The notes under the pieces: model-generated
Told to the model about the DNA's origin: nothing
Database searches by the model: none
The model's input: only the letters and a program-made list of their open reading frames with translations
In this document: piece after piece, positions 45,923-63,109 of the stretch
How positions within the stretch are numbered: the first letter of the stretch is position 1
How the letters are laid out: each line of letters opens with the position of its first letter
Translations under genes and position numbers: made by a program
Origin: Nonomuraea soli
Lineage (GTDB): Bacteria; Actinomycetota; Actinomycetes; Streptosporangiales; Streptosporangiaceae
Length of the DNA: 64,000 nt
Direction: 5' to 3'
Assembly: GCF_013761175.1 (NCBI RefSeq)
Contig: NZ_JACDUR010000001.1
Coordinates: 1-64,000, forward strand

Positions 45923-46459
45923 ATGGCGAAGGTCACCGCGGACGACTGGGCGAACGCCGCCCTGGAGGCGATGGCGGAGGGCGGGCCCGCGGCGGTCGCC
46001 GTCGAGCCGGTCGCCACCAGGCTGGGCGTCTCCAAGGGCAGCTTCTACTGGCATTTCACCAACCGGCAGGCCCTGGTGGAGGCGGCACTGAGACGCTGGG
46101 AGACCTCGACGGGCGAGATCATCGATTACCTGGAGGAGATCCCCGATCCGGCGGCGCGCCTGCGGGCCCTGCTGGAGCTGGCCTTCTCCGACCCGCGAGA
46201 CGCCTCGGTGTCGCTGCGGCTGGTCGGCGCCGCCGACGACCCCGCCGTCGCCGAGGTGGCGCGGCGGGTCAGTCAGCGGCGGCTCGGCTACATCGCGGCC
46301 GCGCTGGAACAGCTCGGCCACCCGCCGCAGGCCGCGCGCGACAGGGCGCTGTCGGCCTACAGCGGCTACCTGGGGCTGGCCGCGCTGCTGCGCATCGGGG
46401 CGGTCACCGAGGTGCCGCCCAACGCGGTCGAGGAGGTGCTGCGGGAGATGCTCACCTGA
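45923..46459 (+). CDS. TetR-family regulator
   Basis: 178 residues from ATG 45923 (GGAAGGATG upstream). Helix-turn-helix: DDWANAALEAMAEGGPAAVAVEPVATRLGVSKGSFYWHFTNRQAL. The C-terminal domain (ALLELAFSDPRDASVSLRLVGAADDPAVAEVARR) is a typical ligand pocket. Divergent from the SRPBCC-HipA-DUF3037 operon with two shared operators between, so it likely represses both itself and that operon. It overlaps the convergent LLM gene by 8 bases. Confidence 0.87.
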   Translation: MAKVTADDWANAALEAMAEGGPAAVAVEPVATRLGVSKGSFYWHFTNRQALVEAALRRWETSTGEIIDYLEEIPDPAARLRALLELAFSDPRDASVSLRLVGAADDPAVAEVARRVSQRRLGYIAAALEQLGHPPQAARDRALSAYSGYLGLAALLRIGAVTEVPPNAVEEVLREMLT

Positions 46460-47312
46460 TGATCTCTTCGGCGAACCTCTCCATGGTCACCCGCTTCAGC
46501 TCGAGGCCGCTCAGCGTGGCCTTCTCCTCGGGCGTTGCGAGCCACCAGGGCGCCGCCATCGTGGCCGACACGCCCTTGTCGTGCCATCGCCGGTAGGTGT
46601 CGCGATCGGGTAGCACGGCCAGCGGGGCGACGATCTCCAGGGCGTCGGCGGGCCTGCCGTACTCCGCCAGAAACTTGCGCAACGCCGCCAGCACCTCGTC
46701 GAGCTGCTCCTCGGCGTAGATGCGGTTGCCGATCCAGCCGTCGCCGAGCCGGGCCGCCCTGCGCAGGGCCGCCTCGCTGTCGCCGCCGACGTACACCGGG
46801 ATCGGGCGCTCGGGCGTGGGGGCGATGGAGAACTCCGGGATGCCGGGCAGGGTCAGCGCCTCGCCGCTCCACAGCTGCCGCAGCCGCGGGATCATCGCGT
46901 CGAGGCGGCGGCCACGCGTGTGGAAGTCCTGGCCGGTCGCCAGGAACTCCTCCTTGCACCAGCCCACACCCACCCCGAACGTCACCCGGTCGCCCGACAG
47001 CACCGCCGCCGTGGAGACCTGCTTGGCCACGGTGAGAAGATCACGCGCGGGAGCGATGTAGACGTTCGGCGCGAAGCGCAGCCGCGTCGTCACCGCCGCC
47101 ATCGCCCCGATCGTCACCCACGCGTCCGGCCAGTGCGTGGAGGCGTCCCAGCGCGGCTTCCCGCTGCGCGAGTAGGGGTACGGCGTGGCGAAGTCGGCGT
47201 AGAAGAGGTGGTCGGACAGGGTGAAGGTGTCGAAGCCGCAGTCCTCGGCGATCCGGGCGAGCTGGGTGAACTCGCCCGTGTCGACGAAGGAGGCGCCCAG
47301 CCAGTACCTCAC
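46452..47312 (-). CDS. LLM-class F420-dependent oxidoreductase
   Basis: 286 residues from GTG 47312, which overlaps the stop of the preceding gene (GTGA). Luciferase-like TIM-barrel: FTLSDHLFYADFATPYPYS, RLRFAPNVYIAPARDLLTVAKQVST, VTFGVGVGWCKEEF, and IPVYVGGDSEAALRRAARLGDGW. This is the F420-style (TIGR03619-like) branch. It is the last gene of a coupled three-gene operon (hydrolase, LLM, LLM) under the 49.36-kb operator. Substrate unknown. Confidence 0.87.
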   Translation of the reverse strand: MRYWLGASFVDTGEFTQLARIAEDCGFDTFTLSDHLFYADFATPYPYSRSGKPRWDASTHWPDAWVTIGAMAAVTTRLRFAPNVYIAPARDLLTVAKQVSTAAVLSGDRVTFGVGVGWCKEEFLATGQDFHTRGRRLDAMIPRLRQLWSGEALTLPGIPEFSIAPTPERPIPVYVGGDSEAALRRAARLGDGWIGNRIYAEEQLDEVLAALRKFLAEYGRPADALEIVAPLAVLPDRDTYRRWHDKGVSATMAAPWWLATPEEKATLSGLELKRVTMERFAEEIIR

Positions 47313-48556
47313 TGGAACTCCGGGATGACCTTGGTGGCGAACAGCTCCAGGTTGCGCTTGACCGTGTCGAGCGGCAGCACACCCTGCTGTCCCTGCATGT
47401 ACAGGCCGAACCACTCCAGGTCCGGCATGCGGTCGAGCATGCGCTGGATGCCGCGCTTGACGTCGTCGGGCGAGCCGAACAGCGCCATCTCGACGTCGTT
47501 CATGCGCTTGACGTCGCCCTTCTCCGGCGAGATGGGCTTGTGCCTGTCGTCCTCCTTCTTGCGCAGCACCTCCAGGTAACCGAACGGGCCGAAGAAGGCG
47601 GCGAAGTCCTTGGGGATGCCGCGGCCGTAGGTGTTGATCGCCTCTTCCGTCGTGTCGGCGATGCCCACGATCTTCAGGATGCCGGTGTGCTCGCCCAGCT
47701 TGTAGTGGCGCCCGGCCTTGGCCGACTCCTCCTGGTAGAGCTTGGCCTTGGCCGCGTGGTCGTCGGGGTTGGGCGTGAACATCCACGGCATGATGTCTTC
47801 TTGCGCGGCCCGGATGACGCTGCGGTCGGAGATCGTGAACGGCTGCCACAACTCGGGGTGCGGGTTCTGGTACGGCCGGGGGCAGACCGAGATCGCCTGG
47901 ACCTTTCCCTCGTCGTCGAGCTCGCCCGGCGCGCCGAAGGTCTGCGTCCACTCCTGCGCGGGCCAGCCCTCGATGCCCTCGTAGGGATGGGGCACGGAGT
48001 AGTCGAGCACGTCCGACTTGTAGCGCAGCGTCTCCTGCGTCCACGCCATCTTCATGATCTTGAGCACTTCGCCGAAGACGTCGAAGTTGCGGTCGTCGGA
48101 CTTGGAGCCGTCGGAGCGGGCGGCCGCGGCGTGCCAGCGCTGGCCCAGCACGTTCATCCACCGGTTCTGGTAGCCGCGCGCTACGCCGAGGCGCAGCCGG
48201 CCCTTGGAGAACTGGTCGAGCAGCGCCACGTCCTCGGCCGCCCGGATCGGGTCCCACGCGGGCAGCACCATGCCGAGCGGCGCCAGCAGGATGCGCTCGG
48301 TGCGGGCCGCCAGGTCCGTCAGGAACATCAGCGGGTTGACCGAGAACTCCATGCCCTCCGAGTGGAAGTGGTGCTCGGTCATCATGAGGGCGTCGAAGCC
48401 GATGCGGTCGGCGTGGACCGCGATCTCGCGCACCTCGTGCAGCAAGGCCTGGTACGACTCGGTGTCGCGGCCGATCGGCCGTTTGGCGCGCGCGTTCGCC
48501 TCCGCGGCGTACCCGGAGCCGGGGATCTGGGGGTTCAGGAAGATGGCGAACTTCAC
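47309..48556 (-). CDS. LLM-class flavin-dependent monooxygenase
   Basis: 415 residues from GTG 48556. GAGGAG six bases upstream and a 4-base overlap with the previous stop (GTGA) support that start over ATG 48574. It is a longer luciferase-type enzyme: VKFAIFLNPQIPG, MMTEHHFHSEG, RILLAPLGMVLPAWDPIRAAEDVALLDQFSKGRLRLGVARGYQ. The C-terminal half has insertions (ISVCPRPYQNPHPELW, then KRMNDVEMALFGSPDDV). It resembles bacterial luciferase-like monooxygenases acting on alkanals or terpenoid/aromatic ketones. It is the middle gene of the hydrolase-LLM-LLM operon. Confidence 0.87.
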   Translation of the reverse strand: MKFAIFLNPQIPGSGYAAEANARAKRPIGRDTESYQALLHEVREIAVHADRIGFDALMMTEHHFHSEGMEFSVNPLMFLTDLAARTERILLAPLGMVLPAWDPIRAAEDVALLDQFSKGRLRLGVARGYQNRWMNVLGQRWHAAAARSDGSKSDDRNFDVFGEVLKIMKMAWTQETLRYKSDVLDYSVPHPYEGIEGWPAQEWTQTFGAPGELDDEGKVQAISVCPRPYQNPHPELWQPFTISDRSVIRAAQEDIMPWMFTPNPDDHAAKAKLYQEESAKAGRHYKLGEHTGILKIVGIADTTEEAINTYGRGIPKDFAAFFGPFGYLEVLRKKEDDRHKPISPEKGDVKRMNDVEMALFGSPDDVKRGIQRMLDRMPDLEWFGLYMQGQQGVLPLDTVKRNLELFATKVIPEFQ

Positions 48557-49332
48557 GTGAGACTCCTCAGCCATTCAGTGACGACAAGAGCGAATTCGGC
48601 AGGGCGTTCCTCGTGCAGCCGATGGCCGCTTCCGGGCCAGCAGATCGTGCGCGAGCGGGGGTCCTTCAGCAGGTCGGCCTCCCAGGCGGCCTGGGCCGGG
48701 TTGGCCCAGAACGACAGCACCGGGCAGGTCCGCTGCGACAGGTAGGCGTCGGCGGCCGGGCGGGTCCCGATCGCGTCCTGGCCGTCCCAGAGCGACTCGA
48801 ACGCCTGGGCCAGCACGTGCGGCGGGGTGGCCAGCAGCCTCCTGCGGTGCCATTCGCGCAGCCAGGAGGGGGAGGCGGCGGTGTAGCACCACTGGTCGAT
48901 CTGGACGGCCGCGGCCGCGGGGTCGGGGCCGCGCAGGCCGTCGAGGAGGCTCAGCGAGATGCGGCCCACGCCCGCGGGCCAGCCGTAGCCGGGGTCGACG
49001 GTGACGAGGGCCTTGACCAGCTCGGGGTGCTCGACGGCCAGGCGGGAGACGATGACGGCTCCCATCGAGTGGCCGACGGCCACGCACGGGCCGTCGAGGA
49101 GCCGGACGAGGTCGCCGGTCATCGCGGTCACGGTGTTGCCGGTCTCCGGGGCGGAGGAGTATCCGTGTCCGCGCAGGTCGACGGCGATCACCCGGTAGTG
49201 CTGGGTGAGCGCGGGCAGGTGGTGCACCCACTGATGCGAGTCCGCGCCCCAGCCGTGGACGAGCAGCAGTGTGGTGTCCCCGGAACCGTCGTCGGTGTAG
49301 AACAACCGAAACCCGTCCAACTCCACGAACAT
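48553..49332 (-). CDS. Alpha/beta hydrolase
   Basis: 259 residues from ATG 49332 (a TTG at 49341 would add three residues). Fold markers: LLLVHGWGADSHQWVHHL (oxyanion hole), VIAVDLRGHGYSSAP, nucleophile in AVGHSMGAVIVSRL, and His in WPGSGHRLHEERPAEF. It should cleave an ester, lactone or C-C bond in the cytoplasm. As first gene of the operon with two LLM enzymes, it may hydrolyse esters or lactones made by a Baeyer-Villiger-type LLM reaction; that idea is inference. Confidence 0.87.
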   Translation of the reverse strand: MFVELDGFRLFYTDDGSGDTTLLLVHGWGADSHQWVHHLPALTQHYRVIAVDLRGHGYSSAPETGNTVTAMTGDLVRLLDGPCVAVGHSMGAVIVSRLAVEHPELVKALVTVDPGYGWPAGVGRISLSLLDGLRGPDPAAAAVQIDQWCYTAASPSWLREWHRRRLLATPPHVLAQAFESLWDGQDAIGTRPAADAYLSQRTCPVLSFWANPAQAAWEADLLKDPRSRTICWPGSGHRLHEERPAEFALVVTEWLRSLT

Positions 49333-49359
49333 GGTCAGCAAGCTACTCTAAGATTCTGA

Positions 49360-49377
49360 ACCGAGCAATCGCTTGGT
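49360..49377. promoter_or_regulatory. 18-bp operator in the LLM/hydrolase divergent promoter
   Basis: ACCGAGCAATCGCTTGGT forms an inverted repeat (ACCGAGC / GCTTGGT, one mismatch pair). It sits in the 60-base gap between the hydrolase-LLM operon and the third LLM gene. The same motif is found twice more at 58378 and 58423. Confidence 0.7.
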
Positions 49378-49392
49378 AGAGAGAGGGGCGTC

Positions 49393-50214
49393 ATGCGGCT
49401 GGGCGTCACGATGTTCGCCACCGACCGGTCGATCTCCATCACCCGGCTGGCCCGGGCCGTCGAGGAGCGCGGGCTCTGCTCGCTCTACCTGCCCGAGCAC
49501 ACCCACATGCCCGTCGCCACCCCGCACACGCCGGGGCAGCCCGACGTGCCGGAGCCGTACAAGCGCACGCTCGACCCGCTCGTCGCGCTCGCCGCCGCCG
49601 CGGCCGTCACCGAGCGCATCACCCTGGGCACCGGCATCCTGCTGGCCGCGCAGCGCGAACCGCTCGTCACGGCCAAGGCCATCGCCACCCTCGACCACCT
49701 CGCGCCCGGCCGGGTGGCGGTGGGGGTCGGGTTCGGGTGGAACGCGCCCGAGGTCGAGCACCACGGCGTGCCCTACGCCGAGCGCAGGGACGTGGCTCGG
49801 CGGCACATGCTCGCCATGAAGGCGCTGTGGAGCCAGGAGCAGGCCTCGTCGGAGAGCTTCGGTCCGACCTATTCATGGCCCAAGCCCACGGTGATGCCGC
49901 CGATCTACCTCGGCGGCGCGGCGGGGCCCAAGCTGTTCGCGCACGTGGCGGAGTACGGCGACGGCTGGATCCCGATCGGCGCCAAGGGCATCAAGGCCGC
50001 CCTGCCCGCCTTCCGCGACACCTGTGGCGACAAGCGCATCATCCCGTTCGGCTCGCTGCCCACACCCGACAAGCTCGAGTACTTCGCCACGCTGGGGATC
50101 GAGGAGGTGGTGGCCAACGTGCCCAGCGGCACCGCCGACGAGGTGCTGCCGGTGCTGGACACGCTGGCTGCCATAATCTCCCCCTATGTCGAAACTCGCC
50201 CCGCTTCGCGCTGA
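49393..50214 (+). CDS. LLM-class F420-dependent oxidoreductase
   Basis: 273 residues; GAGAGGGGCG precedes the ATG. Motifs: MRLGVTMFATDRSISI, CSLYLPEHTHMPVAT, ITLGTGILLAAQREPLVTAKAIATLDHLAPGRVAVGVGFGWN. It belongs to the F420-dependent TIGR03619-like group, like the 46452 gene but diverged. It is transcribed away from the hydrolase-LLM-LLM operon across the shared operator, so all four genes probably form one regulon. The end overlaps the kinase gene by 29 bases, giving tight translational coupling to an unrelated function. Confidence 0.87.
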   Translation: MRLGVTMFATDRSISITRLARAVEERGLCSLYLPEHTHMPVATPHTPGQPDVPEPYKRTLDPLVALAAAAAVTERITLGTGILLAAQREPLVTAKAIATLDHLAPGRVAVGVGFGWNAPEVEHHGVPYAERRDVARRHMLAMKALWSQEQASSESFGPTYSWPKPTVMPPIYLGGAAGPKLFAHVAEYGDGWIPIGAKGIKAALPAFRDTCGDKRIIPFGSLPTPDKLEYFATLGIEEVVANVPSGTADEVLPVLDTLAAIISPYVETRPASR

Positions 50215-51457
50215 GGACCCGCGACGGCTGGGCGCGTACGACCTCGTCGGCAGGCTCGGCCAGGGCGGCCAGGGCGTGGTCTACCTGGGCGAGCCCGCGG
50301 CCGCCGTCAAGCTGCTGCACGCCAGCGTCGACGAGCGGCGCATGCGGGGAGAGATCGAGGCGCTGCGCCGGGTCGCGCCGTTCTGCACCGCCCCGCTGCT
50401 CGACGCGGGCATCGCCGACGGGCGGCCCTACCTGGTCAGCGAATACGTCGACGGGGTGTCGCTGCGCGAGCACGTCATCGCGAGCGGGCCCCGCACGGGA
50501 GGGTCGCTGCACCGGCTGGCGATCGGCATGGCCACCGCCCTGGCCGCCATCCACCGCGCCGGGGTCGTGCACCGCGACTTCAAACCCGGCAACGTGCTGC
50601 TCGGGCTCGACGGGGTGCGGGTGATCGACTTCGGCGTCGCGCGCCTGGTGGGCACCGACGTGACCACGGGGCTCGCGGTGGGCTCACCGGCGTACATGGC
50701 GCCCGAGCAGGTCAAGGGGGAGGTGGCAGGGCCGGCTGCCGACCTGTACGCGTTCGGGCTGACCGTCGCGTTCACGGCCAACGGGCGGCACGCGTACGGC
50801 GGGGCGACGTATCAGGAGGTGCTGGCCAAGATCGTGTACGGCAGGGCGGACCTGGGGGAGCTGAGCGGGTCGCTGCGGGAGATCGTGGAGGGCTGCCTGG
50901 CGCCCGACCCGGAGGAGCGGCCGTCGGCGGAGGAGGTGCTCCGGCTGCTGCGGCACCACGACGCGCCCGCCACGGCACGTTCTGAGGTGTCGGCGGCTCG
51001 TCCTGTCTTGGTGCGCACCCTGCCCGGCGGTGAGGCGGCGGCTCCGAGGCGGAGGCGCCCGGCGTGGTGGCAGGTGCTCGTCCTCGCGGCCGGACTCGCC
51101 GCGGCCGTGGCCGGATTCGTCCTCTGGCTGGACTCGCCCAAGATGCCCACCCTCACCGGCCATTGGACCGGCACCGCCGTACACCCTGCGGCGGGCCGCG
51201 TCTTCCCGGTCGAGCTGGACCTGGCGGGTGAGGGCGACTCACGCATGCGCTGGGGCGCCGACCTGCACTGCGAAGGCATGCTCAGCCCCGGCGGCAAGCC
51301 CCTGACCTTCAGTCTCGACCGCGTGGAGGGCAAGGAGTGTTACCCCGGCACCGTCGTCCTCGGCCCCACCCGCGACTCCAACCAGCTGGACATCAAGGTC
51401 TCGCGATCAGGTGACAACACCGTCACCTACTCGGGCACGGTGGCGCGCCCCTCCTGA
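50186..51457 (+). CDS. Membrane serine/threonine protein kinase (short extracellular domain)
   Basis: 423 residues. PknB-like kinase domain: GQGGQGVVY loop at 25-33, Lys42 in AVKLLH, catalytic HRDFKPGN, DFG in VIDFGVARL, and APEQ at the activation segment. After a juxtamembrane stretch, one transmembrane helix (WQVLVLAAGLAAAVAGFVLWL) precedes about 100 extracellular residues with two Cys (LHCEGML, KECYPG). There is no PASTA repeat, unlike the next gene. It starts inside the LLM gene. The two kinases share high similarity in the catalytic domain, so they arose by duplication. Confidence 0.9.
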   Translation: MSKLAPLRAEDPRRLGAYDLVGRLGQGGQGVVYLGEPAAAVKLLHASVDERRMRGEIEALRRVAPFCTAPLLDAGIADGRPYLVSEYVDGVSLREHVIASGPRTGGSLHRLAIGMATALAAIHRAGVVHRDFKPGNVLLGLDGVRVIDFGVARLVGTDVTTGLAVGSPAYMAPEQVKGEVAGPAADLYAFGLTVAFTANGRHAYGGATYQEVLAKIVYGRADLGELSGSLREIVEGCLAPDPEERPSAEEVLRLLRHHDAPATARSEVSAARPVLVRTLPGGEAAAPRRRRPAWWQVLVLAAGLAAAVAGFVLWLDSPKMPTLTGHWTGTAVHPAAGRVFPVELDLAGEGDSRMRWGADLHCEGMLSPGGKPLTFSLDRVEGKECYPGTVVLGPTRDSNQLDIKVSRSGDNTVTYSGTVARPS

Positions 51458-51565
51458 CCTGGTGTGTCACAGTCAGGCGGCAATCGCCCCGCGAACCGTT
51501 GACTGCCGATGGTACGTCTCATTCAGTGGAACCCAACGACGGGTTGCTAGCGAGGGGAGGCGCCC

Positions 51566-53581
51566 GTGCCCATCATGCAGCCGCTCAGGACGGGGGACCC
51601 TCGGCGACTGGGAGACTACGAACTGTCAGGCCGCCTCGGTGAGGGCGGTCAGGGAGTGGTCTATCTCGGCACCAGGAGTCCTGAGCGGGGAGAGCACGAG
51701 CCGCAGGCAGGGGCCCACCACGAGGTGAGCTGTGCGGTCAAACTGCTGCACGGCACCGTGGGGGACGAACAGGCCGCCTTCCTGCGCGAGGTCGAGCTGG
51801 CCAAGCACGTGGCCAGGTTCTGCACCGCGCAGGTGCTCGACGTCGGCTTCGCCGAGGGCCGGCCGTTCATCGTCAGCGAGTACGTCGACGGGCCCTCGCT
51901 CCACCGGGAGGTGGCGCTGACCGGGCCGCGGCGCGGAGCCTCGCTGGAACGCCTGGCCGTGGGCTGCGCCACCGCGCTGGCGGCCATCCACCGGGCGGGC
52001 ATCGTGCACCGCGACTTCAAGCCGCAGAACGTGCTGCTGGGACCCGACGGGCCGCGCGTCATCGACTTCGGGCTGGCCCGCGCCCTCGACGCCGCCGCCA
52101 CCCAGAGCGGGCGGGGTGTCGGCACTCCCGCCTACATGGCGCCCGAGCAGATCACGGCCTCCGCGGTGACCGGGGTGGCCGACGTGTTCGCGTGGGGCGC
52201 CACGATGTGCTTCGCCGCGAATGCCTCCGCCCCCTTCGGGCAGGACTCCGTCGCACCGGTGCTGCATCGCATCCTCACCGCGCCGCCCGCGCTCGGGCGG
52301 CTGGAGGGGGCGTTACGCGAACTGGTGGCGGCTTGCCTGGAGAAGGACCCGCGCAACCGGCCCACCAGCCGGGATCTGCTGCTGGAGCTGCTCGGCGGTG
52401 CCGAGGGGGTGCCGGCGGAGGTGCTGCGCTCACCTCCGCCGCACGTCTTCCGCGCGGCGCGGGCGGCGGACGCGGCGGACGCGGAGGACACGGACCCGAC
52501 GGGGTGGATGGCGGCCGGTGTGTCGATCGGCGGCGCCCCGATCGCCGAGCCTGAGGCCACGGGAGCGGCCCCGGACTCGTACCGCCTGCCGGATGCCGAG
52601 TCAGCGGGCAGGGAGAAGACGGGGACGGGTGGCCTCGGTTCGAGTCTGGTCACCTCGCCCAGGGCCGGCGCCGTCAACCGCGCCGGGCTGGCCGTCTCCG
52701 GAGCGCTCCTGGTCACCGCCGCCATCCTGGTGGCCGTCGTCTGGCCGGGCATCTCCCGCCGGGACGACCCGCCGCCCCAGGCCGCCGCCGGGCCGACCGT
52801 GGTGGTGACGACGACGCCCCTCGCGCTCCACCCGCAACTGGAGAGCGAGAACTCCCTGGAGAAGCGCTCGGAAGCGCCCCCCGACAAGCCCGCCGAGCGG
52901 CCGACCGACAGGCCGCCTCCTGCCACCCAGGTCCCCGTCCCTGCCGTGGTGGGCATGGATCGGGCCGCCGCGCAGAAGGCGCTCAAGGCCGGTGGGCTGG
53001 TGCTGGGCGACGTGGCCGAGGTCGACTCCCCGCGGAAGATCGGCCAGGTGCTCAGCAGTGTCCCGGCGGCCGGGGCGAGGGTGGCGCCGGGTTCGCGGGT
53101 GAGCCTGACGCTGTCGGCGGGGATCACCGTGCCCAAGGTCGTCGGCCTGACCCGTCCGGCCGCGGTATCGGCCCTGACGGCGAGCGGTCTGGCGGTGGGC
53201 AAGGTCACGCTGACCTGTGCGGCGGGCGGCGGTAACAGGGTGACCGCGGCCAGTCCGGCGCAGGGGAGCAGGGCGCCCGCGGGGACGAAGGTCGCCCTGA
53301 CGGTGGCGCGGAACGGCGCGCAGATGCCGGGGGTGGTCGGCAGCCAGCGCGCCCAGGCGACCAAGCAGCTGGCCGGCGCCGGGTTCACGGTGAGGGTGGT
53401 GCCGCGGCTGGTGAGCGATCCGAGCCAGGGTGACGTGGTGCTGGCCCAGAACGTGGCCGCCGGGACGTGTGCCAAGCCGGGGCGCGTGGTGACGCTGACG
53501 GTGGGCGTGATGGGGCAGACGGAGCCCGAGCCGGACCCGAGCGAGGACCCGACGACCCCGGCCCCGAGCCCCAGCCCCTGA
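51566..53581 (+). CDS. Serine/threonine protein kinase with three PASTA repeats
   Basis: 671 residues from GTG 51566 (GGGGAGG before it). Kinase: GEGGQGVVYLG, CAVKLLH, HRDFKPQN, VIDFGLARAL, YMAPEQ. A Pro/Ala-rich juxtamembrane region and a helix (LAVSGALLVTAAILVAVVW) follow. The outside part holds three PASTA repeats: VPAVVGMDRAAAQKAL, VPKVVGLTRPAAVSAL and MPGVVGSQRAQATKQL. It ends in a Glu/Pro/Ser-rich tail. PASTA kinases sense muropeptides or lipid II and regulate cell-wall growth. This one lacks neighbouring division genes, so it is an accessory member rather than the housekeeping PknB. Confidence 0.92.
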   Translation: MPIMQPLRTGDPRRLGDYELSGRLGEGGQGVVYLGTRSPERGEHEPQAGAHHEVSCAVKLLHGTVGDEQAAFLREVELAKHVARFCTAQVLDVGFAEGRPFIVSEYVDGPSLHREVALTGPRRGASLERLAVGCATALAAIHRAGIVHRDFKPQNVLLGPDGPRVIDFGLARALDAAATQSGRGVGTPAYMAPEQITASAVTGVADVFAWGATMCFAANASAPFGQDSVAPVLHRILTAPPALGRLEGALRELVAACLEKDPRNRPTSRDLLLELLGGAEGVPAEVLRSPPPHVFRAARAADAADAEDTDPTGWMAAGVSIGGAPIAEPEATGAAPDSYRLPDAESAGREKTGTGGLGSSLVTSPRAGAVNRAGLAVSGALLVTAAILVAVVWPGISRRDDPPPQAAAGPTVVVTTTPLALHPQLESENSLEKRSEAPPDKPAERPTDRPPPATQVPVPAVVGMDRAAAQKALKAGGLVLGDVAEVDSPRKIGQVLSSVPAAGARVAPGSRVSLTLSAGITVPKVVGLTRPAAVSALTASGLAVGKVTLTCAAGGGNRVTAASPAQGSRAPAGTKVALTVARNGAQMPGVVGSQRAQATKQLAGAGFTVRVVPRLVSDPSQGDVVLAQNVAAGTCAKPGRVVTLTVGVMGQTEPEPDPSEDPTTPAPSPSP

Positions 53582-53601
53582 CTCCCGGGGCGGGGGTCAG
53601 G
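53579..53601. terminator. Hairpin between the kinase and tetR genes
   Basis: CTGACTCCC (53579-53587) pairs with GGGGGTCAG (53593-53601) with one G-U wobble, exactly where the two convergent genes meet. It may end both transcripts. Confidence 0.5.
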
Positions 53602-54130
53602 CCCAGCGGGAGAGCAGCTCCAGCAGGCTCTGCCGTACCGTCTCCTCCGGCAGGTCCATCGTGTGCACCATGCCGTACTCCAGCGCTCCCAGCGCCGCCC
53701 ATCCCCGCACCCTGGTGAAGTCCGTCGGCTCGGGGCCGACCAGCTTGGCGTAGATCTCGTCGCGGAAGGTGCGCACCGCCTCGCCGGTGGATCCGGGCGG
53801 CGCCTCGTCGATGCGCCCGATGTCCTCCAGCATGAGCCGCACCACCGCGCGATGCCGTACGCAGAAGGTCACCAGTCCGTCGAGGCAGCGCGAGAAGGTG
53901 TCGAAGGTGGCGCCGAGGAAGTCGAACAGGTCGTCGGCGGCGGGTGCGATGAGCTCGGCGGCAAGCCGGTCCTTGGGGTGGAAGTGGTAGGCGACGGCCG
54001 TCTTGGTCAGTCCGACGGCGCCGGCGATGTCGGCGAGCGAGGTGGCGGCGTAGCCGCGCTCGGCGAACAGTTTCTGCGCCGCGGCGAGGATGCGGCTGCG
54101 GGTGTCGTTGCCGTGATCGAGTGTGGTCAT
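53597..54130 (-). CDS. TetR-family regulator of the MMPL gene
   Basis: 177 residues from ATG 54130. Helix-turn-helix: DTRSRILAAAQKLFAERGYAATSLADIAGAVGLTKTAVAYHFHPKDRL. Divergent from the MMPL exporter gene with a perfect palindrome in the 74-base gap, next to the MMPL ribosome binding site. It therefore very likely represses that gene and perhaps itself. Ligand unknown. Confidence 0.88.
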   Translation of the reverse strand: MTTLDHGNDTRSRILAAAQKLFAERGYAATSLADIAGAVGLTKTAVAYHFHPKDRLAAELIAPAADDLFDFLGATFDTFSRCLDGLVTFCVRHRAVVRLMLEDIGRIDEAPPGSTGEAVRTFRDEIYAKLVGPEPTDFTRVRGWAALGALEYGMVHTMDLPEETVRQSLLELLSRWA

Positions 54131-54169
54131 CGTCTCACTTCCCAGGTGGTGCAGCACTGCTTATCGTAG

Positions 54170-54191
54170 GTCCTGTACGGGCGTACAGGAC
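54170..54191. promoter_or_regulatory. Perfect 22-bp TetR operator before MMPL
   Basis: GTCCTGTAC (54170-54178) and GTACAGGAC (54183-54191) are exact inverted copies with a 4-base spacer. It ends one base before the MMPL ribosome binding site (GAGGGG) and 14 bases before the ATG. Confidence 0.82.
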
Positions 54192-54204
54192 GAGGGGAAA
54201 GCCA

Positions 54205-56361
54205 ATGTCGGGACTGCTGGGACGGTTGGGCGGCTGGTGCGCGCGGCACGGCCGCTGGGTGCTGGCCCTGTGGGTGATCGTCGCGGCGGCCCTGATGGGC
54301 GGCAGCCTGGCGCTCGGCAGCCCGGTGAGCAACGAGGTGTCGATCCCCGGCAGCGACGCCCAGCGGGCCCACGACCTGATGGCCGAGGGTTTCGGTCCCG
54401 GTTACGGCACGGGCGGGACGGTCCAGCTGGTCCTGTACGCGGACGCGGCCCTGGCCGCCGAGCCGCGCAAGCAGGCCCTGGACGACTCGGTCGAGCGCAT
54501 CGAGCGGCTCCCGAACGTCGTGGACGCCGAGCTCAGGCCGTCGGCGAACCCGAACATCGGGATGATCGTCGTCAGGCTCGAAGGCCACGACACCACCAAG
54601 ACGGCGCAGACCGCCCAGACGATCGCGAAGGCCGCCGACCCGGCGCGGGAGTACGGGGTCGAGGTGGTGCCCGCCGACAACTCCACGCCCGCCGACAAGG
54701 AGATCAAGACCGGCCCGAGCGAGATCGCCGGCGTGCTCATCGCCCTGCTCGTGCTGGTCCTCGCGTTCGGCACGCTCGTCGCCGCCCTGGTGCCCATCTT
54801 CAGCGCCCTCGTCAGCGTCGTGACGGGGCTGGGCCTGATCGGCCTGCTCGGCCACCTGATCGACGTGCCCAAGCAGGCGGGCATCATGGCCACCATGATC
54901 GGCCTGGGCGTCGGCATCGACTACGCCCTGTTCCTCATCTCCCGCTACCGCAGGCTCCTGGCCGAGGGCGTGCCGACCGTGGAGGCCGTGCGCAGGACCA
55001 CCTCCAGCTCGGGCGGCGCGGTCGTGTTCGCGGGCGGCACCGTGATCATCGCGCTGAGCGCGCTCATGCTCGGCGGCTTCCCGCTGCTGCAGACACTCGG
55101 CTGGATCACCGGCCTGTCGGTGGTGTGCGCGGTGCTCACCTCGGTCACGCTGGTGCCCGCGATGCTCGGCGTGCTCGGACCGAAGATCAACGCGCTGCGG
55201 GTGCTCAAGGCGCGCGGCTCGGAGGACAGCGGCTGGGGCGGCCTGGCCCAGTGGGTCGCCCGGAGGCCCTGGCGGGTGCTGATCGGCAGCGTGCTGGTGC
55301 TGGCCGCCCTGGCCGCGCCCGCCCTGACGCTGAAGCTCGGCCCGCTCGGCGACTCCTACGCCGAGGAGGGCACCACCACCCGCCGCGCCTACGAGCTGAT
55401 CCAGACCGGGTACGGACCCGGCGCCAACGGGCCGCTGATCGTGGTGGCCGACGGCACCGGTGACGCGCACGCCGTACGGCAGGCGCTGGACGAGGTGCCG
55501 GGCGTGGCGAGCGTCGGCCCCGCCAAGCTCAACGAGTCCGGCAGGTCGGTCCTGGTGCAGGTCATCCCCGACTACGCGCCCGGTGACCCGCGTTCCCTGG
55601 ACGTGGTCGAGGCGGTGCGCGCGCTGGAGCTGCCCGGCGCGAAGGTGCACGTCGGCGGCGAGGTGGCGGCGATGGCCGACGTCGGCGGCCGCATGGTCGA
55701 GCGCACGCCGCTGGTCATCGGCGTGGTGGTGCTGCTCAGCGCGTTGCTCCTGCTGCTCGCCTTCCGCGCCCCCGTGGTGGCGGTCAAGGCCGCGGTGATG
55801 AACCTGATCTCGCTCGGCGCCGCCTTCGGCGCGCTGGCGCTGGTCTTCTCCCTGGGCCTGGGCAGCCGCCTGGTGGGCATGGACCCACCGGTCTCCGACG
55901 CCATGCTCGTGGAGTGGATCTTCAGCGTCCCGATCGACAACTACGTGCCCCTGATGCTCTTCGCGGTGCTGTTCGGGCTGTCGATGGACTACGAGGTCTT
56001 CCTGCTGACCGCGGTGCGCCAGGCCTACCTCAAGCACGGGGACAACCGCCGCGCCGTGGCCGAGGGACTGGGCTCGACCGGACGGGTGATCACGTCGGCG
56101 GCACTCATCATGGTCGCCGTGTTCGTCGCCTTCATCGCCTACCCCGACCCTCTGGTGAAGGTGTTCGGCGTGGGCCTGGCGGTGGCCATCGCGGTCGACG
56201 CGACCATCATCCGCGGGTTCCTGGTTCCGGCGACGATGGTGCTGCTGGGACGGGCCAACTGGTGGTGCCCGCGCTGGCTCGACCGGCTGCTGCCCAACCT
56301 GTCGGTCGAGGGGCACGAGGAGCACACGTCAGCACCACGTGAGCTGGTCGATGCGCGATAG
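54205..56361 (+). CDS. MMPL-family RND transporter
   Basis: 718 residues from ATG 54205 (GAGGGGAAA upstream). Two MMPL units each with a large outer loop: first helix WVLALWVIVAAALMGGSLAL, then GVLIALLVLVLAFGTLVAALVP and GLGVGIDYALFLISRYRR (the GxxxDY energising motif). The second unit contains FGLSMDYEVFLLTAVRQAYLKHGD. It should export lipids, siderophores or drugs by proton motive force. The TetR gene and operator alongside suggest induction by its substrate. Confidence 0.92.
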   Translation: MSGLLGRLGGWCARHGRWVLALWVIVAAALMGGSLALGSPVSNEVSIPGSDAQRAHDLMAEGFGPGYGTGGTVQLVLYADAALAAEPRKQALDDSVERIERLPNVVDAELRPSANPNIGMIVVRLEGHDTTKTAQTAQTIAKAADPAREYGVEVVPADNSTPADKEIKTGPSEIAGVLIALLVLVLAFGTLVAALVPIFSALVSVVTGLGLIGLLGHLIDVPKQAGIMATMIGLGVGIDYALFLISRYRRLLAEGVPTVEAVRRTTSSSGGAVVFAGGTVIIALSALMLGGFPLLQTLGWITGLSVVCAVLTSVTLVPAMLGVLGPKINALRVLKARGSEDSGWGGLAQWVARRPWRVLIGSVLVLAALAAPALTLKLGPLGDSYAEEGTTTRRAYELIQTGYGPGANGPLIVVADGTGDAHAVRQALDEVPGVASVGPAKLNESGRSVLVQVIPDYAPGDPRSLDVVEAVRALELPGAKVHVGGEVAAMADVGGRMVERTPLVIGVVVLLSALLLLLAFRAPVVAVKAAVMNLISLGAAFGALALVFSLGLGSRLVGMDPPVSDAMLVEWIFSVPIDNYVPLMLFAVLFGLSMDYEVFLLTAVRQAYLKHGDNRRAVAEGLGSTGRVITSAALIMVAVFVAFIAYPDPLVKVFGVGLAVAIAVDATIIRGFLVPATMVLLGRANWWCPRWLDRLLPNLSVEGHEEHTSAPRELVDAR

Positions 56362-56398
56362 AAGTGCTCTCGTGACAGTCAGGGCACAGACTTCGCCC

Positions 56399-57244
56399 AT
56401 GTCTGTCATGCGCAAGGCGCTGACAAGCGCCATAGCCGCCGTGGCCCTGCTGCTCTCCCTCACCGCACCGGCCGGGGCCATCACGGGAGGCCTCCCGGAC
56501 GGCAACCTGCACCCCAACGTCGGCCTCATCCTCTACTACACCGAGGAGGGGCGCTTCCGCTGCTCGGCCACCCTCATCTCGCCGACCGTCCTGCTGACGG
56601 CCGCGCACTGCACGGAGGGCACACTGGGCAGCACGCTCGTCACCTTCGACTCGGTGATCGCCGAGAACCCGCCGTCGCCGTTCCCGGTCGCCGCCGACCC
56701 GAGCGCGGGATACACCCCGCAGGAGATCACCGCGGCCGGGTTCCTGTCGGGCACCGCCCACACCCACCCCGAATACTCGGGCTTCACCGACCTCGACAAC
56801 TGGAACGACATCGGCGTCATCGTGCTCGACCAGCCGGTCGCCGGGATCACCCCGGCCCAGCTGGCGCCGATCGGCTACCTCGACGCCTACGCCCAGCCGA
56901 GGCTCAACAAGACCATCTTCACCTTCGTCGGGTACGGCACCGAGGTCCGTAAGCCGCTGACCGGCCCGCAGAAGCCGCAGCCGATGACGTATCCGCTGAT
57001 GCGCCGCTACGCGGAGTCTCCGGGTCAGAAGCTGACGCCGCAGATCCTGCAGGCCAACGGCAACTACAACGACAACCGCGGCACCGGAGGCACCTGCTTC
57101 GGCGACTCGGGCGGTCCCGGCTTCCTCAACGGCTACCTCGTCACCGTGACGAGCTACGGCTACACGCAGAACTGCCGCTACCTCGGCGGCTACCAGCGCG
57201 TCGACATCCCCGTCGTGGCCGACTGGATCGCGACCTTCCTGTAA
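56399..57244 (+). CDS. Secreted trypsin-like serine protease (S1A)
   Basis: 281 residues from ATG 56399; ATG 56408 would give a shorter signal peptide. Signal MRKALTSAIAAVALLLSLTAPAG and no long propeptide: the mature chain starts near ITGGLPDG, which resembles the IVGG start of trypsins. Triad: His in VLLTAAHCTEG, Asp in NDIGVIVLD, Ser in CFGDSGGPGFLNG. Cys pairs around the active site are present. It is less related to the tandem pair at 31-33 kb than they are to each other. A bidirectional hairpin follows. Confidence 0.88.
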   Translation: MSVMRKALTSAIAAVALLLSLTAPAGAITGGLPDGNLHPNVGLILYYTEEGRFRCSATLISPTVLLTAAHCTEGTLGSTLVTFDSVIAENPPSPFPVAADPSAGYTPQEITAAGFLSGTAHTHPEYSGFTDLDNWNDIGVIVLDQPVAGITPAQLAPIGYLDAYAQPRLNKTIFTFVGYGTEVRKPLTGPQKPQPMTYPLMRRYAESPGQKLTPQILQANGNYNDNRGTGGTCFGDSGGPGFLNGYLVTVTSYGYTQNCRYLGGYQRVDIPVVADWIATFL

Positions 57245-57251
57245 GGGCGAG

Positions 57252-57287
57252 CGGGCGGGGGCGGGACGCGTGCCGTACCCCCGCCCG
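57252..57287. terminator. Bidirectional terminator between convergent protease and alcohol dehydrogenase genes
   Basis: GGGCGGGGG (57253-57261) pairs perfectly with CCCCCGCCC (57278-57286), extended by one C-G pair. It fits between the two stop codons and can serve both strands. Confidence 0.7.
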
Positions 57288-58346
57288 TCAGTCGAAGACG
57301 ATGACACTGCGGGCCACCGAGCCCTGCCGTACCCTTTCGACCGCCGCGTTGATGTCCTCCAGCGGCACGCGTTCGGTGATCAGCCCGTCCAGGTCCAGCC
57401 GTCCCGCCATGTACTGCGCGGCCAGCATGGGCAGGTCGCGCAGCGGCGCGGCGTCGCCGCCCTGGGTGCCCATGAGCCTGCGCGAGGCGAACAGCAGGCT
57501 GGGGTCGATCTCCAGGTTCTGGCCGCGCGGCGGGCTGCCGACCATGACGGTCGTGCCGCCCGGGCGGGTGGCGGCGAAGGCCTTGGCCAGCACGCCGGGA
57601 ACGCCGGTGGCGTCGAAGGCGTAGTCGACGTTCTGCGGGAACTCCTGGACCGGTGTCGCGCCGAACCGCTCGGCCAGCTTGAGCTTCTGCTCGGCGATGT
57701 CGGCGGCGTAGATCGTGGTGGCCCCGGCCAGCACCGCGCCCTGGATGACGTTGAGCCCGACCCCGCCGCAGCCGACGACCAGCACACTTGAGCCCGGCTG
57801 CACACGCGCCACGTTGAGCACGGCGCCGACGCCGGTGACGACGCCGCACGCGAGCAGGGCCATGGCGGCGAAGGGCGCGTCCTTGGCGATCTTCACGCAC
57901 ATGCGCTCGGAGACCACCGCGTGCTCGGCGAAGGAGCCGATGCCGATGAAGCGCCTGGTCTCGGCGCCGTCGAGGGTCATGCGCGGCAACCCGCCCATGA
58001 TCGCGGTCATCCGCGCTGGGCCCGAGCACAGGTGGAACTCGCCCCCGGCGCAGCCCCGGCAGCGCCCGCAGGGACCGCTCATCGCGATGATCACGTGGTC
58101 GCCCGGCTTGAGTGCCGCGACCCCCTCGCCGACGCTCTCGACCACGCCCGCGCTCTCGTGGCCGAGCACGAAGGGCAGCTGGGAGACGACCGGGCTCTTG
58201 CCGTCGATGGCCTTCAGGTCGGAGCCGCAGATGCCGGAGGCCCGGATGCGCACGCGGACCTCGCCGGGTCCCGGGTCGGCCAGCTCGACCTCGCGGATCT
58301 CCAGGGGCGCGTGGAATTCGGTCAGTACGGCGGCGCGGGTCAGCAT
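57288..58346 (-). CDS. Zinc-dependent alcohol dehydrogenase
   Basis: 352 residues from ATG 58346. Medium-chain dehydrogenase: catalytic zinc site ASGICGSDLKAI and LGHESAGVVESVGEG, structural zinc lobe with CGRCRGCAGGEFHLC, and Rossmann VLVVGCGGVGLNVIQGAVLAGA. It should oxidise a primary or secondary alcohol with NAD or mycothiol as partner. The gene diverges from an ABC importer operon across two copies of the ACCGAGC-type operator, the same motif found at the LLM cluster. It is therefore likely part of the same catabolic regulon. Confidence 0.9.
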   Translation of the reverse strand: MLTRAAVLTEFHAPLEIREVELADPGPGEVRVRIRASGICGSDLKAIDGKSPVVSQLPFVLGHESAGVVESVGEGVAALKPGDHVIIAMSGPCGRCRGCAGGEFHLCSGPARMTAIMGGLPRMTLDGAETRRFIGIGSFAEHAVVSERMCVKIAKDAPFAAMALLACGVVTGVGAVLNVARVQPGSSVLVVGCGGVGLNVIQGAVLAGATTIYAADIAEQKLKLAERFGATPVQEFPQNVDYAFDATGVPGVLAKAFAATRPGGTTVMVGSPPRGQNLEIDPSLLFASRRLMGTQGGDAAPLRDLPMLAAQYMAGRLDLDGLITERVPLEDINAAVERVRQGSVARSVIVFD

Positions 58347-58377
58347 GACCGTCACGCTAGCCGGAGCACAATTGCGT

Positions 58378-58395
58378 AGCAAGCAGTTGCTTGGT
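58378..58395. promoter_or_regulatory. 18-bp operator, copy A of the ABC/ADH promoter
   Basis: AGCAAGCAGTTGCTTGGT, an inverted repeat of the same type as the site at 49360. It lies 32 bases before the alcohol dehydrogenase start. Confidence 0.7.
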
Positions 58396-58422
58396 GATGT
58401 CCGTAAATCTACTCTTCAGAAA

Positions 58423-58440
58423 ACCGAGCGAGCGCTAGGT
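58423..58440. promoter_or_regulatory. 18-bp operator, copy B of the ABC/ADH promoter
   Basis: ACCGAGCGAGCGCTAGGT shares arms and spacing with the other two sites. Its right end overlaps the ribosome binding site AGGTGG of the solute-binding protein gene, so binding could block transcription and initiation. Confidence 0.68.
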
Positions 58441-58447: not shown

Positions 58448-59680
58448 ATGAGGAAGCGGATGATTGCCGTCCTGGCCGCTGCGGGGCTCGCCGCCGCGGC
58501 CTGCGCGGCCGAACAGTCGGGCGGTACGGCCAGCGGTGCGGCTTCCGGTGTCACCGGCACCTCCATCAAGATCGGCGGGGTGCTCACCAAGACCTCGGCC
58601 AGCGGCTACTCCACCAAGGACGCCGAGATCGGCGCCAAGGCCAGGTTCGAGCGCGCCAACGCCGCAGGCGGCGTGCACGGCAGGAAGATCGAGTTCGTCG
58701 GCGCCGAGGACGACACCCAGGACGCGGCCAAGGGCGACGCCGCGGCCAAGAAGCTCGTGCAGAAGGACGGCGTGTTCGCCCTCGTGCCCGTGCACGCGCC
58801 CAACTTCGGCGGCGCCGCCTTCCTGGAGCAGCAGGGCGTGCCGTGGTTCGGCTGGGCGACCGGGCCGCAGTGGTGCGGCACCACGACCGGCTTCGGCTAC
58901 AACGGCTGCCTGGCGCCCAAGGCGGGCGCGGGCTCGCAGACCTGGTGGGGACGGCAGATGGCCGACCTGCTCGGCGGCGCCCAGGGCAAGAAGGTCTGGG
59001 TGCAGACCTCCGACTCCAGCGGCAGCAAGTACGGCGGCAAGACCATCTCCCAGTCGTTCGAGGCGGCCGGCTTCACCCTCGTCGGCGTCGACTCCAGCCT
59101 GCCCGCCGCGGCCCCGCCGCCCGACTGGCTCCCGCACGTCAACAAGATCATGGCGACCAAGCCCGACGTCGTCGTCAGCGTCATCGCGGGCACCAAGTTC
59201 AACGCCGGGCTCTACGCGGGCCTGAAGAAGGCCGGCTACCAGGGCGTGCTCACCGACGCCACCAGCTACGACGCCAACATCCTCAAGGACCCCGCCCAGG
59301 CGCAGGCGTTCGAAGGCGTCATCGCGGCACCCATGTTCGAGCCCTTCGAGTCGACCGCCCCGGAGATCGAGCAGCTGCGCAAGGACGTCGAGGCCGTGGC
59401 GCCCGGCACCCAGCTCACCCAGCACCTGGCCATCGGCTACTGGGCGGCCGACATCTTCCTGAAGGTCGCCGACCAGGCGGGCAAGGACCTCACCAGGGAG
59501 AAGTTCCTGTCCGTGGCCAACGGCACCTTTTCCTACGAGAACGCCGGATTCGGGCGCATCGCCTATCCCAAGGACCACGACGAGCCCAACGGCTGCGGCG
59601 CGCTGGTGAAGATCAGCGGCGGCGCGTTCCAGGTGGCCAAGAACATGAAGTGCTTCGACAACGTGCCGCTCAAGCCGTGA
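58448..59680 (+). CDS. Branched-chain-type ABC importer substrate-binding lipoprotein
   Basis: 410 residues from ATG 58448 (AGGTGG six bases upstream). Lipoprotein signal with lipobox LAAAAC (MRKRMIAVLAAAGLAAAAC). Mature part is a Leu/Ile/Val-type periplasmic-binding fold: IKIGGVLTKTSASGYSTKDAEIGAKARFE, GGVHGRKIEFVGAEDD, and PNFGGAAFLEQQGVPWFGW. The pocket differs from known amino-acid binders, with many Trp and Gly residues (WFGWATGPQWCG), so the cargo may be an aromatic or amide compound. First gene of the importer operon; its stop overlaps the next start (GTGA). Confidence 0.88.
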   Translation: MRKRMIAVLAAAGLAAAACAAEQSGGTASGAASGVTGTSIKIGGVLTKTSASGYSTKDAEIGAKARFERANAAGGVHGRKIEFVGAEDDTQDAAKGDAAAKKLVQKDGVFALVPVHAPNFGGAAFLEQQGVPWFGWATGPQWCGTTTGFGYNGCLAPKAGAGSQTWWGRQMADLLGGAQGKKVWVQTSDSSGSKYGGKTISQSFEAAGFTLVGVDSSLPAAAPPPDWLPHVNKIMATKPDVVVSVIAGTKFNAGLYAGLKKAGYQGVLTDATSYDANILKDPAQAQAFEGVIAAPMFEPFESTAPEIEQLRKDVEAVAPGTQLTQHLAIGYWAADIFLKVADQAGKDLTREKFLSVANGTFSYENAGFGRIAYPKDHDEPNGCGALVKISGGAFQVAKNMKCFDNVPLKP

Positions 59681-62381
59681 TCGGATACATCCTCAGCGGG
59701 CTCGTCACCGGCGCGATCTTCGCGGTGCTGGGCTCGGGACTGACCCTGTCGTACGCGGCGACCGGGGTGTTCAACTTCGCCCACGGCGCGATCGGCTTCC
59801 TGACCGCGCTGGTGTACTACGAGCTCTACGCCGGACTCGGGCTGCCGCGCTGGATCGCCGCCCTGGTGGCGGCCGGGCTGTTCGCGCCGCTGGTCGGGCT
59901 GGCACTGCACCGGGCGATGTTCCGCGGGCTGGCGGGGGCGGGGGAGACGGCGCAGATCGTCGGCACCATCGGGCTGACGATCGCGCTGCCCGCCCTCGGG
60001 CTCTTCCTGGTCGAGCTGGCCCTGCCCCTGGGGCTCGCGCCAATCGACGTGAGCGTGCAGCCGCGCGGCGTCGGCCCGGCGCCGCCCGCGCTGTTCGACC
60101 TCGGCATCGTCACGCTCGACAGCGACCAGCTGATCACCTTCGGCTTCGCCGTACTGGCCGCCGCCGGCCTGTGGGCCTTCATGCGCCACACCCCGTACGG
60201 CCTGCGCATGCGCGCCTGCGTCGACCGGCGCGGCCTGGCCGGGCTACGGGGCATCGACCCCGACTCCACCTCCGCCCTCGCCTGGATGCTCAGCTGCCTG
60301 CTCGCCGGCCTGGCCGGTGTGCTGGCGCTGCCCATCGTCGGGCTCGACGCCCACGCCTACACCGTGCTGCTGTTCGCCTCCGCCACAGCCGCGGTGTTCG
60401 GTCGGCTGCGCTCCATCCCCTGGACCTTCGCCGCCGGGCTCGGGCTCGGCGTCGTGACGAACCTCGTCGCCGGATACGGCTCGTTCCTGCAGGAGATCAC
60501 CGGCCTTCGCTCCGCCGTACCCGTCATCCTGCTCTTCCTCGGCCTGCTGCTGCTCAACCGCTCGCGCGAGCGGGTGGCGGGCAGCTCGGCCGAGGACACG
60601 CCGCCGCCCGACTACCGCGCCGACCTGCCGCCGTGGCGGCGCCGCCTGCCCTGGCTCGCCGGCCTGGCCCTGCTGCTGGGCTTCACCTTCACCCAGTCCG
60701 ACTACTACGTGGGCATCGTCGCCCAGGGCCTGGTCCTGGCGCTGATCTTCTGCTCGTTCGTGGTCGTCACCGGGATCGGCGGCATGGTCAACCTCGCCCA
60801 GGCCTCCTTCGCCGCGATGGCCGCACTCACCTGCGGATGGGCCTTCTCCGCGGGGCTGCCGTTCATCGTGGCCATCGTGCTCGGGGTGCTCGCCGCCACC
60901 GCCGTCGGCATGCTCGTCGCCCTGCCCGCGCTGCGGCTCGGCGGGCGCATCCTCACCCTGGCCACGCTGGCCCTGGCGCTCCTGGCCGACCAGGTGCTCT
61001 TCCAGATCGACGCCTTCAGCAACGGGACCATCGGGTGGACGCTGCCCGCGATCAACCTGGGCTTGGGCACCACGACCTCGCCGCAGGTGCGGGTGGTGCT
61101 GCTGCTCGTGCTGATCGGTCTGGTCGGGCTGCTGGTGCGCAACCTCGAACGGTCGGCCTCCGGCCGGGCGATCCTCGCGGTGCGCTCGGCTCCCGCCGCC
61201 GCGACCACCTCGGGGTTGTCGGCGGCGCGCACCAAGTTCCTGCTCTTCGCGCTGGCCTCGGCGATCGCGGGGCTCGGCGGGGTGCTGTACGCGATCTCCA
61301 AGGGGGCGACCACCGCCACCGACCTGCCGGCGTTCGCCGGGTTCGTCTGGCTCGCCGTCGTGGTGCTGCAGGGAGTGCGGCGCATCGGCGGCGCGGTGGT
61401 GGGCGGCCTCATCGCGGCCGTCTTCCCCGAACTGCTGTCGGCGTGGGGAGTGTCGGCGCACGTGGGGCTCATCCTGTTCGGGGCGGGCGGGATGATCCTG
61501 GCCAAACACCCGGACGGCGTGCTCGCCCAGCTCGCCGAGCAACGGTACCGCCGCCGCACGAAGGCCACGGCGGGGTCCACCACGGCGGACACCACGGCGG
61601 GCGCCACGGTGGACCCCCTGTCCGCCGCTCCCGGTGTCCCCCTCCGCCGCGTCGGTGAGACGGTGTACGGCGGAGCCCGGCGGGAGGCGTCCGGTGACCA
61701 GCCGTCCCCGCTGTTCGAGCTCCAAGGCGTGGTCGCCGCCCGAGCCGAGGCCACCGTCCTGCGGGGCGTCGACCTGGAGGTCCACGCGGGCGAGGTCGTC
61801 GCCCTCCTGGGAGCCAACGGCGCGGGCAAGTCCACCACCTGCGCCGTGGCCGCCGGAGACGTCCTGCTCACCGAGGGCCGGGTGCTGCTCGACGGCACGG
61901 ACGTCACCACCTGGCAGCCGCATCGACGGGCCAGGGCGGGCATCCTCCTGGCCCCGGAAGGGCGCGGCGTCTTCCCCGCCCTCACCGTGGAGGAGAACCT
62001 GCGCACCTGGCTGCCCGACCCCGCCCCCGTCTTCGACCGCCTCCCGCTCCTGGCCACCCGGCGTGCCGTACCGGCCGGTGCGCTGTCGGGAGGCGAGCAA
62101 CAGCTTCTCACCCTCGCCCCCGCCCTGGTCAGACCACCGAAGGTGCTGATCGCCGACGAGCCCTCCCTGGGCCTGGCCCCGAGGGTGGTCGAGCAGGTCT
62201 TCCAGCTGTTCACCGAGCTGCGCGACAAGGGTGTGGCGCTTCTCCTGGTCGAGGAGAAGGCGACGGAGGCGCTGGCGATCGCCGACCGGGTGGCGTTCAT
62301 GCGGCTGGGCCGCATCACCTGGACGGGCTCCCGGTCGGAGGTCGACGGCGAGCGGCTGGCGGCGGCCTATCTGGGGGTGTC

Positions 62382-62385: not shown

Positions 62386-63109
<724 letters not shown>

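Follow-up and report, generated by a model that had tools for sequence, protein, structure and literature searches.

What do a cluster of luciferase-like monooxygenase (LLM) and hydrolase genes and a cluster of alcohol dehydrogenase (ADH) and ABC importer genes in Nonomuraea soli have in common, when three 18-bp inverted repeats of the same design lie in their promoter gaps? Both clusters are found in the window, that is, the first 64,000 nucleotides of contig NZ_JACDUR010000001.1 (C1 below), in a genome of 10.09 Mb. An earlier note on this DNA proposed that one TetR-like repressor governs both clusters as part of an undescribed catabolic system. Judged by its sequence, each of the three sites is a match to the operator at which the TetR protein KstR2 represses steroid C/D-ring (HIP) catabolism, and the supposedly undescribed system appears to be a KstR2-type regulon enlarged to about 12 promoter regions across about 120 kb. 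KstR2 itself is already known, together with its sites and the HIP genes; new is the predicted membership of the promoters of the ABC importer, the ADH and several LLM enzymes in a KstR2-type regulon. The operators, with their scores by a matrix of published KstR2 sites, are:

49360..49377, operator 1, KstR2-type, 18 bp, ACCGAGC-AATC-GCTTGGT, between hydrolase-LLM-LLM and LLM, 26.8 bits
58378..58395, operator 2, on the ADH side, AGCAAGC-AGTT-GCTTGGT, 25.5 bits
58423..58440, operator 3, on the importer side, ACCGAGC-GAGC-GCTAGGT, 20.4 bits

Each is an inverted repeat of the form 7+4+7, with 6 of the 7 arm bases complementary. The letters and coordinates in the earlier note proved exact, as did the equal arm lengths and the 4-base spacer, and our gene calls place all three sites in divergent promoter gaps: 49333-49392 separates the leftward hydrolase-LLM-LLM operon from a rightward LLM, and 58356-58459 separates the leftward ADH from the rightward ABC importer.

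Identity and conservation of the operator

Nine KstR2 sites are described in M. smegmatis, M. tuberculosis and R. jostii, with the motif AnCAAGnnCTTGnT (PMC3068626; here and below, papers are cited for individual passages). The pattern ACCDAGCRNNYGCTHGGT occurs in these nine with 0 mismatches in three, 1 in five and 2 in one, and a single base separates the window site at 49360 from the R. jostii site ro04652/04653 when the latter is read on the opposite strand. The published 14-mer alone has 1, 1 and 2 mismatches to operators 1, 2 and 3, respectively; re-reading it as part of an 18-base operator should improve regulon prediction.

A matrix built from 14 sites of this genome and scanned on C1 up to 220000 gave 12 positions of at least 17 bits and weaker ones at 100958 and 127252. 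Since such a scan is circular by design, it was redone with a matrix of the seven distinct 18-mers among the nine published sites, the register of each being set by its best match to the own-genome pattern, which leaves a mild circularity. Over C1:1-220000 this matrix found 14 positions of at least 16 bits, against 0.24 expected in second-order random sequence, and the next position below them scored 11.9 bits; 20 Mb of random sequence held no position of at least 20 bits. The window sites rank 1st, 2nd and 9th among all these positions, and the next-best position inside the window reaches 8.6 bits. Eleven of the 14 lie clear of called genes. Of the others, 82600 runs 5 bases into the start of a gene, 65359 covers the final 16 bases of one and 149604 falls in the opening bases of a called gene; together the 14 make up 12 promoter regions. 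Genome-wide, ACCDAGCRNNYGCTHGGT with at most one mismatch occurs at 19 places, compared with 5 for a reversed control, and 10 of the 19 fall within C1:49-167 kb, about 1.2% of the genome, so that the matches cluster and the random scatter which the earlier note had named as speaking against its idea is not seen.

The sites are also kept in relatives, where their loss had been named as the other outcome that would count against a shared operator. A search with the substrate-binding protein of the importer returned 48 loci, 47 of them with upstream DNA, mostly from Nonomuraea and otherwise from Planobispora, Planomonospora, Streptosporangium, Sphaerisporangium, Thermoactinospora, Thermocatellispora, Bailinhaonella, Actinocorallia and one further actinomycete. 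All 47 importer promoters carry at least one site of at least 14 bits, and 40 carry a second within the search range (41 counting one at -354). Upstream of the LLM gene at 49393 the site is present in all 30 loci fetched, own included, of 57 listed matches. Majority-base identity is far higher in the site columns than in the left and right flanks: 0.98 versus 0.74 and 0.57 for the LLM site, 0.99 versus 0.52 and 0.52 for the importer-proximal site, and 0.87 versus 0.53 and 0.40 for the ADH-proximal site.

Gene content of the predicted regulon and its distribution in the genus

Homologues of 13 further canonical KstR2-cluster gene types lie within C1:65-170 kb. In a one-way best-hit comparison of genome G065, which has the canonical gene order, with C1:1-220000, all 14 gene types found a counterpart at 40-66% identity: KstR2 (43%), two SDRs (60% and 44%), EchA20 (60%), IpdA (57%), IpdB (45%), IpdC (66%), FadA6 (64%), IpdF (64%), FadE30 (59%), a FadD3-like protein (42%), FadE31 (56%), FadE32 (40%) and an IpdE2/FadE33-like protein (44%). 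We take these names from gene order and NCBIfam. The thiolase, the EchA20-like protein and the two SDR proteins score above the cut-offs of NCBIfam PRK07801, PRK07938, PRK07856 and PRK07791. At 299 bits, the protein at 134252 resembles 6co6, a CoA-transferase alpha subunit, and is presumably IpdA. The FadE30-like protein at 147862 has Tcur3483 as its closest match. For the ligase at 163311 the closest solved proteins are a feruloyl-CoA synthetase and a fatty-acyl-CoA synthase, and its FadD3 label therefore derives from the G065 best hit only. A degenerate site of 10.0 bits is seen at C1:169915, just ahead of the IpdE2/FadE33-like gene (169028-169906). The VOC gene, which the earlier note had counted among the controlled genes, was rejected as a regulon member: the best matrix score was 0.2 bits in the gap before its neighbour's start (64380-64560) and below 0 at the VOC start itself.

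Among 54 genomes of the genus, own included, the LLM and an IpdA orthologue are both present in 44 and both absent from 9; the remaining one, G021, has a partial LLM and an IpdA match of just 33%. The importer binding protein occurs in 40 of the 44 genomes with IpdA and in 0 of the 10 others. Fisher's test, which ignores relatedness, gives p = 2e-10 for LLM and IpdA (without G021) and 4e-8 for binding protein and IpdA. The site count follows the same division, with a median of 18 (11-25) in the 42 genomes with typical IpdA and 6.5 (3-10) in the 10 without, the reversed control having a median of 4 in both groups. Two genomes show how parts of the set separate. G018 is a natural experiment: most of the accessory genes (LLMs, ADH, importer, ligases, flavin reductase and thiolases) are kept with sites, and the core HIP genes stand on another contig with a canonical KstR2. 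In G037 the LLM and a site are kept and the importer is gone.

Upper-pathway markers were sought in the own genome, given as 100% complete. The test covered three ring A/B proteins of complete aerobic steroid degradation (the 9,10-seco pathway), HsaC, HsaD and KshA. HsaC had zero matches at 1e-30; the best HsaD match reached 137 bits against a cut-off of 400; and KshA_C, whose cut-off is 23.3, was represented only by a 55-residue piece scoring 22.5 bits, or 23.4 once its neighbours were included. The three proteins are thus not found convincingly, as far as sequence similarity can tell. Positive controls passed the HsaC cut-off in G065 and G092 and the HsaD cut-off in G059 and G092, and scored above 300 bits for KshA_C in G037, G059, G065 and G092; other KshA_C matches above the cut-off in the genus came from G022 (90 bits), G003 (32) and G023 (24). 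G037, of the same genus, has HsaC-like and HsaD-like proteins of 338 and 274 bits, both under the cut-offs, and the other genus genomes are weaker.

The candidate regulator

The earlier note was right that no matching regulator sits beside the sites. The candidate is found outside the window:

C1:126509-127159, minus strand, KstR2-family TetR gene, about 62.5 kb past the window end, among HIP-catabolic genes

The site at 127252 lies between this gene and the thiolase gene starting at 127277 on the plus strand. The closest solved relatives of the protein are 2IBD (186 bits) and M. tuberculosis KstR2 (4W1U and 4W97, 177 bits), followed at a distance by the next at 88.6 bits, and its recognition-helix segment AGILSGSLYHHF is identical in KstR2 of G065 and G092. 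Its assignment to the KstR2 family is firm at the level of protein comparison; its status as an orthologue of KstR2 is not firm, because of its separate clade, its retention in genomes that have no regulon and the promoters of its gene that lack a site. The gene overlaps a DNA-alkylation-repair gene (the pair spans C1:125826-127159), and the pair is kept in nine relatives that lost the HIP genes.

Proposed mechanism and alternatives

The genes next to the three operators and the candidate promoter elements are as follows:

46452..47312, minus strand, LLM, above the cut-off of TIGR03619 (F420-dependent LLM subfamily; family profile match)
47309..48556, minus strand, LLM (Pfam PF00296)
48553..49332, minus strand, alpha/beta hydrolase, first gene of the leftward operon (Pfam PF00561; gene call)
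49344..49349, plus strand, TACTCT, a candidate -10 hexamer for the LLM promoter that lies 10 bases ahead of operator 1 (read from sequence)
49393..50214, plus strand, LLM, above the cut-off of TIGR03619 (F420-dependent LLM subfamily; family profile match)
57288..58355, minus strand, zinc-dependent ADH (PF08240, PF00107)
58410..58415, plus strand, TACTCT, a candidate -10 hexamer for the importer promoter that lies 7 bases ahead of operator 3 (read from sequence)
58460..59680, plus strand, ABC importer substrate-binding protein of the branched-chain amino acid type (Peripla_BP_6; PF13458; nearest solved sequence 4n03)
59677..62385, plus strand, importer permease-ATPase fusion with two permease stretches and one ABC domain (PF02653 twice, PF00005)
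62382..63113, plus strand, second importer ATPase (PF00005, PF12399)

TACTCT may serve as the -10 hexamer of both rightward promoters, and the columns of the LLM-promoter copy are conserved in the 30 loci. At 10 and 7 bases before the operators, these hexamers would place the operator over the transcription start. A fold search with the importer binding protein (model pLDDT 74) returned the general binding-protein type with many kinds of ligand (amino acids, urea, aromatic acids and one fatty acid), so that no importer ligand was deduced from it.

The sites, their match to published KstR2 sites, their conservation, the linked gene set and its co-occurrence are computed results. From them we consider it probable that a KstR2-family TetR repressor uses the sites as its operators; this repressor, most likely the product of C1:126509-127159, would control uptake and breakdown of C/D-ring steroid remnants. 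Binding by this protein, the nature of the inducer and of the imported compound, and all enzyme steps are inferred as follows. When substrate is lacking, a repressor dimer would sit on the transcription start of the LLM, ADH and importer operons, as well as on about 10 promoter regions further right, among them the ones that serve the HIP pathway (FadE31/32-like, FadA6, EchA20-IpdABC, FadE30-IpdF and the FadD3-like ligase). The importer would take up a carboxylated C/D-ring compound, and a CoA ligase would activate the imported HIP-type acid. The CoA ester of a C/D-ring steroid remnant, which for known KstR2 is HIP-CoA (PMC5380842, PMC8399759), would then free the repressor from DNA. The LLMs, the ADH and the hydrolase would supply accessory oxidation and hydrolysis, and the LLMs may act on substrate variants.

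Several observations weigh against this explanation. The site of the TetR gene itself is weak (16.4 bits), and a site of at least 14 bits was found at 25 of the 30 TetR loci fetched, 5 being without one. The KstR2-like TetR is present in 54 of 54 genus genomes, including those that have no regulon. Nine regulon-less neighbourhoods were read, and in these the TetR gene stands with the DNA-alkylation-repair gene and without FadA6; its promoter has a site of at least 11 bits in six and none in three. Kept in this company without the regulon, the TetR protein may have another role. A tree, weak in its deep branches, separates the own-type TetR from canonical KstR2 and puts it in a clade of its own (100/99). 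The importer is absent from four genomes that have IpdA (G033, G037, G044 and G047), and related genomes were counted as independent in the co-occurrence statistics. Finally, the HIP pathway as described in the cited passages needs no LLM, so that the LLMs have no assigned step in it.

The retention of the KstR2-like TetR without a regulon would also fit control by another TetR protein that reads the same kind of site, for instance a paralogue or the TetR encoded at 53597-54157, which sits between the LLM and importer clusters. We regard this as quite improbable, as a search of the own genome for proteins like the KstR2-like TetR gave just one match at E <= 1e-20. The TetR at 53597 was rejected as the regulator: its promoter gap has no site (best score -3.2 bits), its gene adjoins an MmpL gene, it is far from the KstR2-like rows in the tree, and it persists in G037, where the importer is missing. 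Somewhat more room, although still unlikely, is left for a KstR2-family operator and regulator whose regulon has come to serve a different substrate, bicyclic or branched, e.g. a terpenoid. The lack of convincing matches to the ring A/B markers HsaC, HsaD and KshA, the accessory genes outside the canonical set (six LLMs, lipid-transfer-type thiolases, an OB-fold protein and ligases) and the joint retention of these genes with sites in G018, apart from the core HIP genes, agree with such a change, whereas the complete-looking set of HIP gene types and the tracking of IpdA by the LLM and the importer through the genus argue for a steroid substrate. As for chance palindromes in GC-rich promoter gaps, loose matches to ACCDAGCRNNYGCTHGGT are common, since at two mismatches or fewer the contrast weakens to 117 places against 76 for the reversed control. 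The excess of strong matrix positions over expectation, however, together with the persistence of the sites at every importer and LLM locus examined while the flanks diverged, reduces the probability of this origin to almost nothing; it was rejected, and the sites are confirmed as real and more than chance.

A wider picture can be drawn, though only tentatively and with more doubt than assent. Most members of the genus may live on steroid leftovers, having the lower pathway only, a KstR2-controlled ABC importer for excreted HIP-type C/D-ring acids, and a diet widened by LLM flavoenzymes, a flavin reductase and lipid-transfer-type thiolases; the KstR2-type switch would then work without ring A/B enzymes. 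The predicted regulon connects a known regulator of steroid remnants with an importer family and several luciferase-like enzymes, and it makes testable a cross-feeding idea, in which bacteria that seem to lack the means to open the first steroid rings may feed on the last two.

Relation to described KstR2 systems

Of the original claims, that of a shared TetR-type operator joining the two clusters stands, and that of an undescribed system is wrong or incomplete: the operator belongs to the known KstR2 family. With this operator and a KstR2-family gene among HIP genes, the locus is better seen as an extension of a described regulon than as an undescribed system. The passages available on the KstR2 regulon of M. 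tuberculosis, M. smegmatis and R. jostii RHA1 (PMC3068626, PMC5380842) show the same operator sequence, a TetR regulator, homologues of the HIP genes and sites in divergent gaps. They give three sites per genome, in contrast to the approximately 12 promoter regions here; added here are the importer, ADH and LLM operons and the position of the regulator gene beside a DNA-alkylation-repair gene, and the ring A/B markers were not found.

A larger set has been predicted in Nocardioides simplex VKM Ac-2033D, where 29 operons have predicted KstR2 sites and cluster C is assigned to KstR2 (PMC7807495, PMC7593942). KR76_25195, which encodes an ABC 'amino acid' transporter and falls within the range of cluster C, was induced 59-fold by phytosterol according to the same sources, so a KstR2-linked importer has precedent. 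The likeness lies in the many predicted KstR2 operons and the ABC transporter, KR76_25195 being compared with the window importer by description and cluster range only; N. simplex differs in that KstR and ring A/B genes are described there. CamABCD and CamM of R. jostii RHA1, as described in a review (PMC8399759), are alike in serving re-uptake of steroid breakdown products, with one ABC transporter among them, a comparison again made by description only. Clusters for rings C/D set apart from the rest are described in Thermomonospora curvata and Amycolatopsis mediterranei, with other steroid genes elsewhere in both (PMC4810484). Among the papers listed in searches of the open-licence literature, we found no report of LLM enzymes under KstR2, of KstR2 in this bacterial group, or of KstR2 together with a branched-chain amino acid ABC transporter. 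In the passages seen of PMC6429209, KstR2, F420 and an ABC transporter occur in separate gene lists, the F420-dependent enzyme being Rv3520c.

Additional sites and neighbouring genes

Sites distant from the C1:49-167 kb region are mixed in quality: at C1:1029505 the next gene starts 288 bases away, and the pattern match at C2:539284 scores below 12 bits. A 26.1-bit site at C4:444392 lies 14 bases ahead of an enoyl-CoA hydratase gene, possibly a further regulon member. The strongest site found, a perfect palindrome of 33.9 bits at C9:219400, stands 15 bases ahead of a TauD-type dioxygenase gene, and a weak one of 13.9 bits at C1:667152 has a divergent LLM gene on one side and a phytanoyl-CoA-dioxygenase-like (PhyH) gene on the other. 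Within the window, two serine/threonine-kinase genes follow the LLM gene at 49393; the first (50186-51457) overlaps it, and the second (51566-53581) encodes PASTA domains.

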